Origin: a virus
Direction: 5' to 3' (one strand)
IMG/VR virus record: IMGVR_UViG_3300028608_000055
Span: 1 to 30,591 of that record
DNA: 30,591 bases
The notes under the pieces: model-generated
Told to the model about the DNA's origin: nothing
Database searches by the model: none
The model's input: only the letters and a program-made list of their open reading frames with translations
Translations under genes and position numbers: made by a program
Part shown: piece after piece, positions 1,729 through 18,356 of the stretch
Layout: each line of letters starts with the position of its first letter
Position numbering within the stretch: position 1 is the first letter of the stretch

Positions 1729-1891
1729 ATCCCTTCTCCATTGCGTAGCGGGCCTGGCGCTTCTTCGAGCAAGCCCGGTGGTTGCCTACGGACCGGCTGC
1801 GGCCACACTCATCGCAGCGATTGTCCAGTTCGAGGAATGGCATAGGCGCGCCAGGGCGCCGTACCTGGGTGGTTCGGTAGAGCGGCCTCAT
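1709..1891 (-). CDS. Small Cys-containing protein, possible zinc binder (60 aa)
   Basis: The start chosen is the ATG at 1891 whose ATGA overlaps the methyltransferase stop; a longer reading from 1924 would overlap the methyltransferase by 37 bases without need. The sequence CDECGRSRSVGNHRAC holds three Cys and one His in a spacing that could bind one zinc. It is followed by a basic helix (KKRQARYAMEK). Sitting directly after a DNA methyltransferase and coupled to it, a nucleic-acid-related role is possible but unproven. Confidence 0.65.
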   Translation of the reverse strand: MRPLYRTTQVRRPGAPMPFLELDNRCDECGRSRSVGNHRACSKKRQARYAMEKGYANSSG

Positions 1892-3726
1892 GCAGCAAAC
1901 GCCTCGAGCTTGGTTGACTTCCATGGATCATTCGCCCGAGCCAGCGCGGCCATAGGCGGTGGGCTGACACTGTTGCCGCACATGTGCACCTGCTCGGTCT
2001 TGGTGAACGGCTTGCCGTCGGCTCCCTTGTCGATGATGTAGCTGGCGGGGAAGCCTTGGGCGCGGTAGAGCTCGTGCGGCTGCAGCATGCGCAGGCAGAT
2101 GTCGACGATCACATACGGCGTGCCCTTCACAAAGACGGTGACCAGGCCCAGACGGTCCTTGGTGGTCACTGTCGGCGCCGGCGCGTCTGCTGCGCTGGTG
2201 TTTTCGGTGCCGTAGTAGCTGATCAGGAACGCCGCTACTCGAAGCGCACCTTCCTCGTGCTCTGGCGACAGTTTGTACTCGACCAGGGCGTGGTGCTCGG
2301 CGCCTGCGGTCATGGTCGGTACCGGATCATCTACCGCCCGCCCTACGCAGTTTCGACGCAGCGTGGCCAGGCTGGCCGTTACCAGGCGCTGCTGGCTACC
2401 GGTGTTGGTGACCGTGGTCAGTGGCTCGTCCGCGCCTTTGGCTGGCGTGGTGTTGAATCCGCCGTTTGCCTGCTCGATGAAGGCGGTGCACACACCCATG
2501 GCATGGGCCGCACCCGCAGGGCGCTTGTAATTGCCCCCGCTGGTGACGGTCGGCACGGGGTCGGTAATGGCCGTGCCTTCGCTGTTGAACCTGAACTTGA
2601 CCAGGTGGGCCGACGCCATCATCAGCTCGCCGCGATTAGCTGCTGTCACCGTCGGCAATGGGCCGGTCGGGTCGTTCACACGGTCGGTACCCTGATGAGT
2701 TGCGGGAAGAATGACGGGGCTGGCCATGGCAAAAGATCCGCCGCGCGGCCAGGAGGTGACGGTGCGCAGCGGCTCATCTGCCGACTGGGCGAGTTCACCA
2801 GACCAGTTCGCGATCGGCACGATGAACGGCTGCGGGTTGTCGAGCACAAACTTCTTCATGCCCTTGGCCACACGGCGCAGCGTTGCGTCGGCCAGCGCTT
2901 TCTTGCGCCCGAAGATGCTCTTGCTTGGCACGCTCCAATCGATGCAGTCGGCGGCGGTGCGCCACTTCTGCTGGCTCTTGGCGGGGTTCTTAGCGTGGGT
3001 TGGCTCTGGCCACACAATTGGCTGGCCATCGCAACGGGCGATCATGAACAGGCGCTCCCGGCTGGTGGGCGCGCCGAAGTCGCAGGCCTTGATGATCTGC
3101 CATTCAACTTGGTAGCCCATGCCTTCGAGCAGATGCACGAACCGGCGCCAGGTGATGCCGCGTCGCTTCGGGTCGGGCACTAGGAATTGCTGTTGCACTG
3201 GTACGCGCTCACCGACGGCGGCCACAGTGCCGTCCAGCTTCATTACCCGGCCAGTGGCTTTATCGCGCTTAGCAATCAGCGGGCCCCACTGCAAAATCTG
3301 CTTAACGTTCTCGAGGCTGATGACCCGCGGCTTCTTCTTGCCGGCCCACTTCAGGCCGATCCACGACAGGTTGCGGATCTCACGCTTGCGCGGCTGGCCG
3401 CCGGCCGCCTGGCTGTGGTGGGTGCAGTCCGGGCTCATGTGGAACCAGCCCACGGCCCGGCCCTGGCATTCTTCGTCCGGGTCACCCTCGAACACGTCGG
3501 TGGTGAAGTGGCGCGCCGCTGGGTGATTGGCGGTGTGCATGCTGATGGCCGCAGGGCTGTGGTTCTTGGCCACCGTCACCGGGCGCCCAAGGCCCATTTC
3601 CAGCCCGGTGCCGGCGCCGCCGCCGCCACAGAAGAAGTCGACCACGATCTCATCATCCTGAGGGTCAAAGCCGAGGCCGTACTGGGTTTTGAAGTCGAGC
3701 GGGTTCTTTTTCTGAAATGCAGACAT
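1888..3726 (-). CDS. C5 cytosine DNA methyltransferase with repeated target-recognition region (612 aa)
   Basis: This gene encodes a DNA (cytosine-5)-methyltransferase, presumably using S-adenosylmethionine to modify phage or host DNA. Visible family motifs in order: motif I FCGGGGAGTGLE (32-43), motif IV SPDCTHHS with the catalytic Cys101, motif VI ENV (139-141), motif VIII region GAPTSRERLFMIAR (218-231) and motif X CGNSVSPPPMAAL (583-595). Between motifs VIII and X the recognition region is long and contains six copies of a DxPxxTVT-like motif (TVT/TMT at about residues 322, 359, 393, 438, 471, 519). At 612 aa it is much longer than minimal enzymes of about 330-400 aa. No restriction endonuclease is adjacent, so it is probably an orphan enzyme protecting phage DNA from host restriction. 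Confidence 0.95.
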   Translation of the reverse strand: MSAFQKKNPLDFKTQYGLGFDPQDDEIVVDFFCGGGGAGTGLEMGLGRPVTVAKNHSPAAISMHTANHPAARHFTTDVFEGDPDEECQGRAVGWFHMSPDCTHHSQAAGGQPRKREIRNLSWIGLKWAGKKKPRVISLENVKQILQWGPLIAKRDKATGRVMKLDGTVAAVGERVPVQQQFLVPDPKRRGITWRRFVHLLEGMGYQVEWQIIKACDFGAPTSRERLFMIARCDGQPIVWPEPTHAKNPAKSQQKWRTAADCIDWSVPSKSIFGRKKALADATLRRVAKGMKKFVLDNPQPFIVPIANWSGELAQSADEPLRTVTSWPRGGSFAMASPVILPATHQGTDRVNDPTGPLPTVTAANRGELMMASAHLVKFRFNSEGTAITDPVPTVTSGGNYKRPAGAAHAMGVCTAFIEQANGGFNTTPAKGADEPLTTVTNTGSQQRLVTASLATLRRNCVGRAVDDPVPTMTAGAEHHALVEYKLSPEHEEGALRVAAFLISYYGTENTSAADAPAPTVTTKDRLGLVTVFVKGTPYVIVDICLRMLQPHELYRAQGFPASYIIDKGADGKPFTKTEQVHMCGNSVSPPPMAALARANDPWKSTKLEAFAA

Positions 3727-16146: not shown

Positions 16147-16661
16147 CTGACATGGACGAGGTGAACATCGGTTTGCCGTATGAACTGGCAATGGCCGACG
16201 AAGATTCGCGTCGCGAGTTCTACGCATCCGCGCAGGCCATGCTGGCCGCGCACAACCAGGTGAGGGCCGATCACTCGGCTTTGTGGTTCCGATCCGCTGG
16301 CCTGGAGCGCGAGATCGAAGAGTTGCGCAAGGACAAGGACCGCATCGACGCACTTGAGGCCAATGGCTGGGACATCCGTAACTCCAGCAGCGCTCTCGCG
16401 GACACTGGTGATTACACCAGCGCCATTGAAATCGTTGGCCGCTGGATGGACAAGCCGCATGAGCGCGTGATCGGCGAGAACTACAGCGAGAACCTTCGCG
16501 CAGCTCTTGATCAGGCGATGTCGGCTGACGCCTATCCACCTGCACGCCCTGAGTACGACTTCTGCCAGGGCGCCCTGCGCAACGGAAACCGGGCGCGGCG
16601 CCGGGCTGAAGCCCTGGGTATCGACTATGAGGCTGCCATGGCTAAGGGGCGTGCCCAGTGA
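16143..16661 (+). CDS. Hypothetical phage protein with coiled coil (172 aa)
   Basis: The middle contains a helix LEREIEELRKDKDRIDALEA (about 54-73), then WDIRNSSSALADTGDY and VGRWMDKPHERVIGENYSEN, phrases I have seen in unannotated phage early proteins. The C-terminal segment is basic (NGNRARRRAEALGIDYEAAM). ATGA overlap with the upstream gene and GTGA overlap with the replication gene show it is part of the replication operon. Function unknown. Confidence 0.7.
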   Translation: MTDMDEVNIGLPYELAMADEDSRREFYASAQAMLAAHNQVRADHSALWFRSAGLEREIEELRKDKDRIDALEANGWDIRNSSSALADTGDYTSAIEIVGRWMDKPHERVIGENYSENLRAALDQAMSADAYPPARPEYDFCQGALRNGNRARRRAEALGIDYEAAMAKGRAQ

Positions 16662-17563
16662 GCATGGAATTGATGGTCAAGGCCATGAAGACCAAGGTCG
16701 GCAATCCGCTGCGCAAGCTGGTGCTCATCAAGCTGGCCGACAACGCCAACGACATGGGCGAATGCTGGCCCTCGTATCAGCACGTCGCTGACCAGTGCGA
16801 GATCAGCAAGCGCTCTGTCATGAACCACATCAACACCCTGTGCGGTGCTGGCCTGTTGCGCAAGGAGATCCGCAAGGGTGGACCAAAGGGCAACTCCTCG
16901 AACGTCTACTACCTCACCTTGAGTGGTGCAGCAGATTCACTAGGGGTAGTGCAGCAGATTCACCAGGGTAGTGCACCAGGTTCACCCCCTAGTGCAGCAG
17001 ATTCACTAGGGGGTAGTGCAGGAGCTGCACCCAGAACCAGTCACTCTTTTGAATCAGTAAAGGAACCAGTCACTGAACCTGTTGCGACCCAGGCTGAAGC
17101 CATGGTCGCGGAAGGTATCGTGGTTCCGTTCACGGCTCAGCAACCGCGCTGCGAGATCCCAGCTGATATGCCAGGACCGAAGGACCAGTCCTGCAAAACC
17201 TTCAAGGCTTGGGCGAACTATGCAATGGCCTATCGCAAGCGCTACCACGCTTGGCCGGTCTGGAATGCGAAGACCGCCGGGCAGGTTGGTCAGCTGATTG
17301 CCCGCCTCGGCATAGAGGTCGCCCACCATGTGGCCGCGTACTTCCTGGCGATCAACGACGCGCGCTTGATCAACGGCTGCCACAACCTGGGCGACCTACT
17401 GGCCAAGGCCGAGGCCTACCACACCCAGTGGGTCACCAACCGCCAGATGAACTCCACGACTGCCCGCCAGCAGGAGCAGACCCAAGCGAACATCAATGCG
17501 GCGCAGGAAGCGGCTGACTCAATCCTGAACGGCAAGGGAGGGCAGCGGAATGCTTTCCTCTGA
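16658..17563 (+). CDS. O-like replication initiation protein (301 aa)
   Basis: The N-terminal region has a winged-helix type domain (CWPSYQHVADQCEISKRSVM, about 36-55, then NHINTLCGAGLLRKEIRKGG) typical of phage O-like initiators that bind the origin. A low-complexity linker (about residues 90-130) is encoded by DNA iterons. The C-terminal half (ARLGIEVAHHVAAYFLAIND onward) is helical and would contact the helicase loader, as in lambda O. The start is taken as GTG 16658, overlapping the upstream stop, with AAGGGG eight bases away; ATG 16664 is the alternative. Confidence 0.8.
   Translation: MSMELMVKAMKTKVGNPLRKLVLIKLADNANDMGECWPSYQHVADQCEISKRSVMNHINTLCGAGLLRKEIRKGGPKGNSSNVYYLTLSGAADSLGVVQQIHQGSAPGSPPSAADSLGGSAGAAPRTSHSFESVKEPVTEPVATQAEAMVAEGIVVPFTAQQPRCEIPADMPGPKDQSCKTFKAWANYAMAYRKRYHAWPVWNAKTAGQVGQLIARLGIEVAHHVAAYFLAINDARLINGCHNLGDLLAKAEAYHTQWVTNRQMNSTTARQQEQTQANINAAQEAADSILNGKGGQRNAFL
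16926..17031 (+). repeat. Iterons inside the O-like gene, candidate replication origin
   Basis: Four direct repeats start at 16926, 16949, 16971 and 16992, each built on GTGCAGCAGATTCAC plus a G-rich end, with unit lengths 23, 22, 21 and 24. A partial fifth (17016) is the dyad GTGCAG-GAG-CTGCAC. Because unit length is not a multiple of three, the same DNA is read in different frames (AADSLG, QQIHQG, SAPGSPP). Selection therefore appears to act on the DNA, as in lambda ori within gene O. Confidence 0.75.
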
Positions 17564-18356
17564 ACAAACCGCCTCTTTGGCCGGTGCTATCTGCGCTACC
17601 GCTGAGGCAATGGGGCAGGTGATCAGCGCTGGAGGCGCGCAGCTCATCGCTGAGGACCTTTCGGCCTATAACCCTGACGTGATCAAGGGCGCGCTTCGTG
17701 CGTGCCGTAGAGAGCCTTCAGGGCGCCTTTCGCTTGGCATGGTCCTCAAGCACATCCACGCGGCTGATTCCCGTCCCGGTAAGGATGAGGCGTGGTCGAT
17801 TGCCTTGGCGGCCAGTGATGAGCACGAGACCGTGGTGCTCACCACAGAAATCCGCCAAGCAATGATCGCCTCCGAGCCGATTCTTGAAGCTGGCGACAAG
17901 GTCGGCGCCCGAATGGCTTTCATGAGCGCCTACGAGCGCCTGGTGAGCTTCGCCCGCGCCGAGGATCAGCCGGCCAAGTGGGAAGTGTCGCTGGGCTACG
18001 ACGCTGGGCGCCGCGTGGTGGCCATCGAATCCGCCGTCCGCGCCCAGCTCATCACCCACGAGACCGGGGCCAAGTACCTGGCCGACCTGCGTATCCCACC
18101 AATCACCCAGGATGGCCAGGCCATTGCCGGCCTGCTCACCGGCGAGGTGCGCCCGCAGGCCAGCGCCAAGACCCGGGAAAAGCTCGCCGAGGTGCGCTGC
18201 ATCCTCAAGGCGGCCAAGGCCAAGAAAGACCGTGAGCGCGCCAAGGAATCCCAGCGCCGCCGCGTCGACACGTACCTACGCAAGCGACAGACCCGCGTCG
18301 CCATTGCTCAGTTGAACATCAAGCGCGCCGGGGAGCCGGCCGGGAAGGGCGTATGA
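17550..18356 (+). CDS. Replication-associated protein, candidate helicase loader analogue (268 aa)
   Basis: It directly follows the O-like gene (14-base overlap), the position of lambda P or DnaC-type loaders. The N-terminal part has NPDVIKGALRACRREPSGRL and ADSRPGKDEAWSIALAASDE, a pattern found in unannotated phage proteins at this locus. The C-terminal third is very basic and helical (KAAKAKKDRERAKESQRRRV). No Walker motif is visible, so it is not a DnaC-like ATPase. A P-like partner role is inferred from position. Confidence 0.65.
   Translation: MLSSEQTASLAGAICATAEAMGQVISAGGAQLIAEDLSAYNPDVIKGALRACRREPSGRLSLGMVLKHIHAADSRPGKDEAWSIALAASDEHETVVLTTEIRQAMIASEPILEAGDKVGARMAFMSAYERLVSFARAEDQPAKWEVSLGYDAGRRVVAIESAVRAQLITHETGAKYLADLRIPPITQDGQAIAGLLTGEVRPQASAKTREKLAEVRCILKAAKAKKDRERAKESQRRRVDTYLRKRQTRVAIAQLNIKRAGEPAGKGV

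Follow-up and report, generated by a model that had tools for sequence, protein, structure and literature searches.

The stretch 16926–17080 of the IMG/VR virus record analysed here (30,591 bases, whose full length we call the window) is very probably a phage replication origin located inside the gene of its own initiator and working by the mechanism outlined below. On present sequence evidence, it is best read as an intragenic lambda-type origin served by a non-homologous HTH_36 initiator. The O-like replication initiator gene that contains it (16658–17563, plus strand, GTG start) encodes 301 aa. The protein matches HTH_36 (PF13730) with 44.4 bits (curated Pfam cut-off 25, E 1.5e-11) and two PHROGs labelled ‘replication initiation O-like’, phrog_391 over residues 1–285 (E 1e-64) and phrog_8540 over residues 1–141 (E 2.1e-52), and shares 77% identity with a PseuP_222 phage protein annotated ‘DNA replication protein O’. 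RepA_N (PF06970) gave no Pfam match in the O-like protein at E 0.1. A search for PDB sequence relatives returned none that was convincing, and the match of the O-like model to 4pt7 (‘Structure of initiator’) is that of a generic wHTH fold (E 0.05). The genes around the array form a lambdoid block encoding a CI-like repressor, a Cro-like protein, an antirepressor, the O-like and P-like proteins, NinB, and NinG. Elsewhere in the window, a 612-aa ORF (1888–3726, minus strand) resembles a DNA cytosine methyltransferase by eye (FFCGGGGAGTGLEMG).

The middle of the O-like gene carries five complete 15-bp dyads of the form GTGMA-N5-TKCAC, which start at 16926, 16949, 16971, 16992, and 17016 and are spaced 23, 22, 21, and 24 bp apart. 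Iterons 1 (16926–16940), 2 (16949–16963), and 4 (16992–17006) read GTGCAGCAGATTCAC on the plus strand, iteron 3 (16971–16985, plus strand) reads GTGCACCAGGTTCAC, and iteron 5 (17016–17030, no strand assigned) is the perfect dyad GTGCAG-GAG-CTGCAC and the unit closest to the unwinding-like element. The window contains five perfect matches to GTGMA-N5-TKCAC, every one of them inside the array, and the repeat score is 30, whereas 300 shuffles of synonymous codons, with the protein held fixed, reached no more than 17. The repeats reported at 16926–17031 in a preliminary description are thus real, although its count of four and a half units has to be corrected to five complete ones. Its claim that the units are read in shifting frames applies to one of the five: relative to the O-like gene, they start in frames 1, 0, 1, 1, and 1, so that iteron 2 is the sole shifted unit and the remaining four share one frame. 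The proposed better conservation as DNA than as protein holds, with a mean between-unit identity of 87% for DNA and 27% for peptide. Iteron 2 is 100% identical to units 1 and 4 as DNA and 0% as peptide, its VQQIHQ having nothing in common with the peptides of the other units.

Viral, genomic, and phage searches yielded 203 distinct related genes, nearly all of which share the N-terminal domain; they include those of Shigella phage SfV, Salmonella ST64B, E. coli cdtI, Aeromonas AsXd-1, and Klebsiella and Vibrio phages. Since the block directly 3' of the array is almost invariant (nearly unchanged in 297 of 309 loci), the units of the relatives can be read in a fixed register. Their half-site words comprise GTG[CA]A, TGCC[AG], TAGGC, GGGCA, and GTGAC, all arranged as 5-N5-5 dyads with the register preserved, and the spacing pattern is maintained while the iteron word varies. 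Among relatives with the GTGMA word (class A), unit 4 is found in forward orientation in 26 and inverted (GTGAA-N5-TGCAC) in 22, an in-place inversion that preserves the dyad and alters the peptide completely. Units 4 and 5 are separated by a 9-bp G-tract spacer (17007–17015, TAGGGGGTA, no strand assigned), which relatives have in this form or as its reverse complement (CACCCCCTA/G), with AGGGGGT or ACCCCCT; the spacers thus seem to flip too. In Pseudomonas bharatica CSV86 (L087:5246–5470), the G-run between units 4 and 5 is one base shorter and the resulting frameshift divides the O-like gene into two ORFs, reflecting either a true pseudogene or a homopolymer sequencing error. In Vibrio phage V039C (L116), this module of N-terminus and iterons is immediately followed by a gene for a DnaB-like helicase in place of a P-like gene.

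AlphaFold2 models residues 1–88 (16658–16921, plus strand) confidently as a winged helix-turn-helix DNA-binding domain (block mean pLDDT 75–92, with one block at 65), with helices at residues 3–11, 17–29, 40–47, and 51–63 and strands at 67–72 and 81–86. The helix at residues 51–63 (16808–16846, plus strand), the predicted recognition helix and specificity determinant, is placed there independently of covariation, and it is at residues 46–58 that protein and iteron word are most strongly associated. We compared 131 distinct pairs of N-terminal domain and half-site, each gene contributing a single consensus half-site. The distances between half-sites are correlated with those between recognition helices (r 0.75), and the partial correlation is 0.65 for residues 49–58 given the remaining domain versus 0.09 for the remaining domain given the helix. 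In windows along the domain, the partial r is 0.60 at residues 46–58 and between -0.11 and 0.14 at residues 1–43 and 67–88. None of 999 permutations matched the value of 0.65, nor did any of 999 after thinning to 42 or to 23 divergent domains, in a test that controls for distance and not fully for phylogeny; at the strictest thinning to 9 domains, where power is lost, 15 of 999 did. Parsimony counts 23 changes of half-site class, but there are only 2 supported independent pairs, too few for a sign test.

The association can be resolved to individual positions. Residues 53/55 sort the first half-site bases, with S-M/I accompanying GTG (60/60), T-K accompanying GGG (10/10), A-R/K accompanying TGC (35/37), and T-R accompanying TAG or TAC (19/22), while residue 56 goes with base 5, as N with A (64/64), R with C (8/8), and D with G (8/9). 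The rule from helix to word was fixed in writing before unseen genes were collected by searching for the 3' element with DNA alone, and it was correct in all 11 distinct unseen genes that it covered (8 cases and three further domain variants). The helices KTAI, RSVQ, and SSVR fell outside the rule and, while informative, were left out of this count. One locus (L410) pairs a new helix, SRKTAIGH, with a new word, GTGTA-N5-TACAC. A K51R exchange was considered as a strong cause of the change from GTGCA to GTGAA and rejected, as both half-sites occur with several of the K51 and R51 proteins, and in some cases domains that are identical have different half-sites. Because helix and DNA word change together in more than 100 related viruses, the N-terminal domain is predicted to bind the iterons, and we regard this joint change as strong evidence for binding of the repeats by the initiator.

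A second element (AGAACCAGTCACTCTTTTGAA, with 12-bp repeats) lies immediately 3' of the iterons, and its synonymous sites are frozen across 190 genes. In the window, it spans 17031–17080 on the plus strand (CCAGAACCAGTCACTCTTTTGAATCAGTAAAGGAACCAGTCACTGAACC), with CC-AGA-ACC-AGT-CAC-TCT-TTT-GAA directly following unit 5, and then the GAACCAGTCA repeats, whose copies start at 17034, 17051, 17063, and 17075 and have a 12-bp period with one 17-bp step. Synonymous codon identity from codon AGA to codon GAA is 0.99–1.00 in the 190 genes, compared to 0.57, 0.34, and 0.37 at two-, four-, and six-fold codons of the N-terminal domain; AGA is frozen here, yet it makes up 8% of the Arg codons in that domain. 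The perfect dyad at 17016–17030 had been described as the end of the candidate origin; the dyad is as reported, but the conserved element follows it, and the origin would extend accordingly. The element is only mildly AT-rich (GC about 48% vs. about 60%), which sets it apart from the AT tract of lambda and speaks against the origin reading. It is the least stable 50-bp stretch of the O-like gene (98.8th percentile of the window), and for this reason we propose that it is likely the DNA unwinding element. As the element is constant across changes of the iteron word, whatever reads it must be shared by all classes. Allowing at most one mismatch, the element was found among 369 sampled gammaproteobacterial genomes only in the one that seeded the search, while 80 viral matches that we inspected have in-register dyads and an upstream O-like reading frame, with few exceptions, which were cut by contig ends.

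The origin-encoded part of the protein appears to serve as a linker to a separate module. It is predicted to be disordered (16922–17119, plus strand; pLDDT about 30 at residues 90–160), so the DNA could be kept as binding sites at little cost to the protein. The C-terminal domain (residues about 155–301, 17120–17560, plus strand) travels with the downstream P-like gene (17550–18356, plus strand), a putative helicase loader or replisome organiser gene that overlaps the O-like gene by 14 bp. The P-like gene is present downstream in 138 of 141 loci with the C-terminal domain and in 0 of the 237 that have the N-terminal domain alone. The N-terminus and the iterons are swapped as a single module; the C-terminus goes with the P-like gene. 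No relative of known function could be recognised for the P-like protein: it matches phrog_6028, a PHROG without assigned function, and has no match in Pfam. One of its relatives is annotated ‘replisome organizer’, and a fold search of the PDB with its model ranked lambda P-DnaB at the top, a match that is not significant (E 0.54, probability 0.16) and serves as a hint only.

Other N-terminal families are found on the same C-terminus. In many Pseudomonas phages (loci L034, L046, L071, L098, L101, and others), an unrelated N-terminus (MQFTVTINQ...) is joined to the O-like C-terminal domain. The iterons of this family (TCGGA-N6-TCCGA) are mostly 22–23 bp apart, occupy all three reading frames in 33 of 46 genes, and are followed by their own frozen AATCAGGATACC repeats. 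The P. aeruginosa phages LESphi3 and phi2 (L121 and L122) carry in-gene GTGCA-N5-TGCAC sites 17 bp apart in three frames, and then GAACC repeats about 12 bp apart. Thus, unrelated initiators share one arrangement, in which a DNA-binding domain is combined with iterons, a repeat element, and a domain that binds the partner. A further N-terminal type with few iteron-like units is present on the same C-terminal domain in Pseudomonas sp. LD120 (L107:4880–5040), where a run of 12-bp repeats (GAGATTACNNCA) precedes that domain.

We propose that the five 15-bp dyads are sites for the winged-HTH N-terminus, which probably binds them as a dimer, as the dyad symmetry and the covariation suggest, with one recognition helix per 5-bp half-site. 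The resulting nucleoprotein complex would open the adjoining weak 12-bp-repeat element at 17031–17080, and the C-terminal domain would recruit the P-like protein, encoded by the overlapping gene, and through it the host helicase. For this recruitment, the co-inheritance of the modules and the analogy with lambda O-P are our guide.

The dyads could instead be operators through which the HTH protein represses transcription or regulates its own gene, with the origin located elsewhere. HTH_36 and its nearest structural neighbours are mostly transcription factors, and covariation as such indicates binding, not replication. Still, the sites lie about 270 bp within the gene, a search for promoter-like sequence nearby found none, an origin would account for five evenly spaced sites beside the weakest duplex and a frozen element of repeats, and both the PHROG label of an O-like initiator and the lambdoid gene order point the same way, making the operator explanation quite improbable. 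Even less probable is an action at the RNA level, in which the repeats would form mRNA hairpins and the paired half-site changes would be compensation within a stem. The region does fold somewhat better than its shuffles (z -2.76), but a C-U mismatch breaks the stem in the commonest unit, an Rfam search gave no match, and the words follow the recognition helix of the HTH. Moreover, at U4 there are 15 G-U pairs vs. 131 broken pairs, from which it follows that the half-sites match a word and not each other.

We give equally little credence to the idea that the array is a low-complexity linker that arose by repeat expansion and is kept for its peptide. In its favour, 430 of 484 class A units lie in the same frame, and the Ser/Ala/Gly/Pro-rich peptides that they encode are alike, and the longer array of phage cdtI is in-frame. 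However, the identical DNA of unit 2 encodes an entirely different peptide, in-place inversion replaces the peptide entirely, the MQFTVTINQ family iterons use every frame, and the linker is predicted to be disordered. The earlier suggestion that selection acts on the DNA rather than the peptide is supported by the inverted units, by the switching of word and helix, and by the frozen synonymous sites of the adjoining element.

Returning to the intragenic origin, we see about an even chance that these phages carry exchangeable origin cassettes, in which a few helix residues and the half-site switch jointly to give orthogonal initiator-origin pairs, while the replisome, or a part of the initiator that does not vary, recognises the fixed 12-bp-repeat element by its sequence. 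If this holds true, the genes constitute a natural paired library for the residue-to-base recognition code of HTH_36 initiators. As a single reading frame in each gene holds both the DNA-binding domain and the sites that belong to it, genomes and metagenomes yield matched protein-site pairs without experiment. This opens initiator specificity, and also the question of whether co-resident prophages are compatible, to direct testing. The frozen 3' element is a new and concrete candidate for an unwinding sequence, and with the pattern as a guide, origins can be found in many temperate phages, including those of Pseudomonas, Vibrio, and enterobacteria.

The principle of an intragenic origin is already known from lambda O and from pSK41/pPR9, whereas no description of this recognition code or of an invariant 3' element was found in the open-access papers searched. 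As in phage lambda O/ori-lambda and the Stx phages P27 and 933W, the iterons lie in the middle of the initiator gene and each is an inverted repeat. Two features of a lambda-type intragenic origin, tandem dyad iterons within the gene and an easily melted region adjoining them, were found. The annotated lambda iterons also span all three reading frames (0, 2, 2, 1) at spacings of 20, 24, and 23 bp, the weak duplex likewise lies 3' of the iterons, the helicase-loader gene overlaps the end of the initiator gene, as the putative loader gene does here, and lambda O has co-travelling N- and C-terminal modules too. The lambda-ori likeness noted in the preliminary description is consistent with gene position, gene order, dyad iterons, same-side weak duplex, and this modularity, and is one of analogy without detectable homology: hhalign aligned the O-like domain with lambda O at a probability of 4% over 10 columns, and the P-like protein has no sequence match to lambda P (probability 0.1%). 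Lambda is the precedent in which this has been tested: its iterons are inverted repeats, O binds a single strand of the AT-rich tract, and the two iterons nearest this tract suffice (PMC7466680). The systems differ in that lambda has 18-bp sites and an A-rich tract, whereas the present origin has 15-bp 5-N5-5 sites and a sequence-invariant element of 12-bp repeats.

The staphylococcal RepA_N plasmid pSK41 has a similar layout, with origin boxes in the middle of rep, a DNA-binding N-terminus, an origin-encoded linker, and a separately conserved C-terminus, and in pPR9, its HTH_36 chimera, a phage-derived pfam13730 N-terminus was exchanged along with the origin (PMC5703833). These are Gram-positive plasmids, though, with a different C-terminus that contacts DnaG, and no half-site code was found for them in the passages searched (PMC5703833). 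The closest published case of covariation between initiator and iterons is RepA of the Vibrio cholerae PLE, in which the DNA-binding domain varies in step with the iterons and both have been replaced on more than one occasion, the C-terminus being retained (PMC8263062). There, the origin is intergenic and whole domains were exchanged, whereas the change is confined to the recognition helix here. Finally, the plasmids RK2 and F have repeated unwinding elements (13-mers and 8-mers, respectively), short direct repeats that adjoin the iterons and of which the initiator binds one strand (PMC4081077). By analogy with TrfA on the RK2 13-mers, the 3' element may possibly be bound sequence-specifically as a single strand; in contrast to RK2 and F, its repeats are 12-mers located within a gene's coding region, and their sequence stays fixed across 190 genes.
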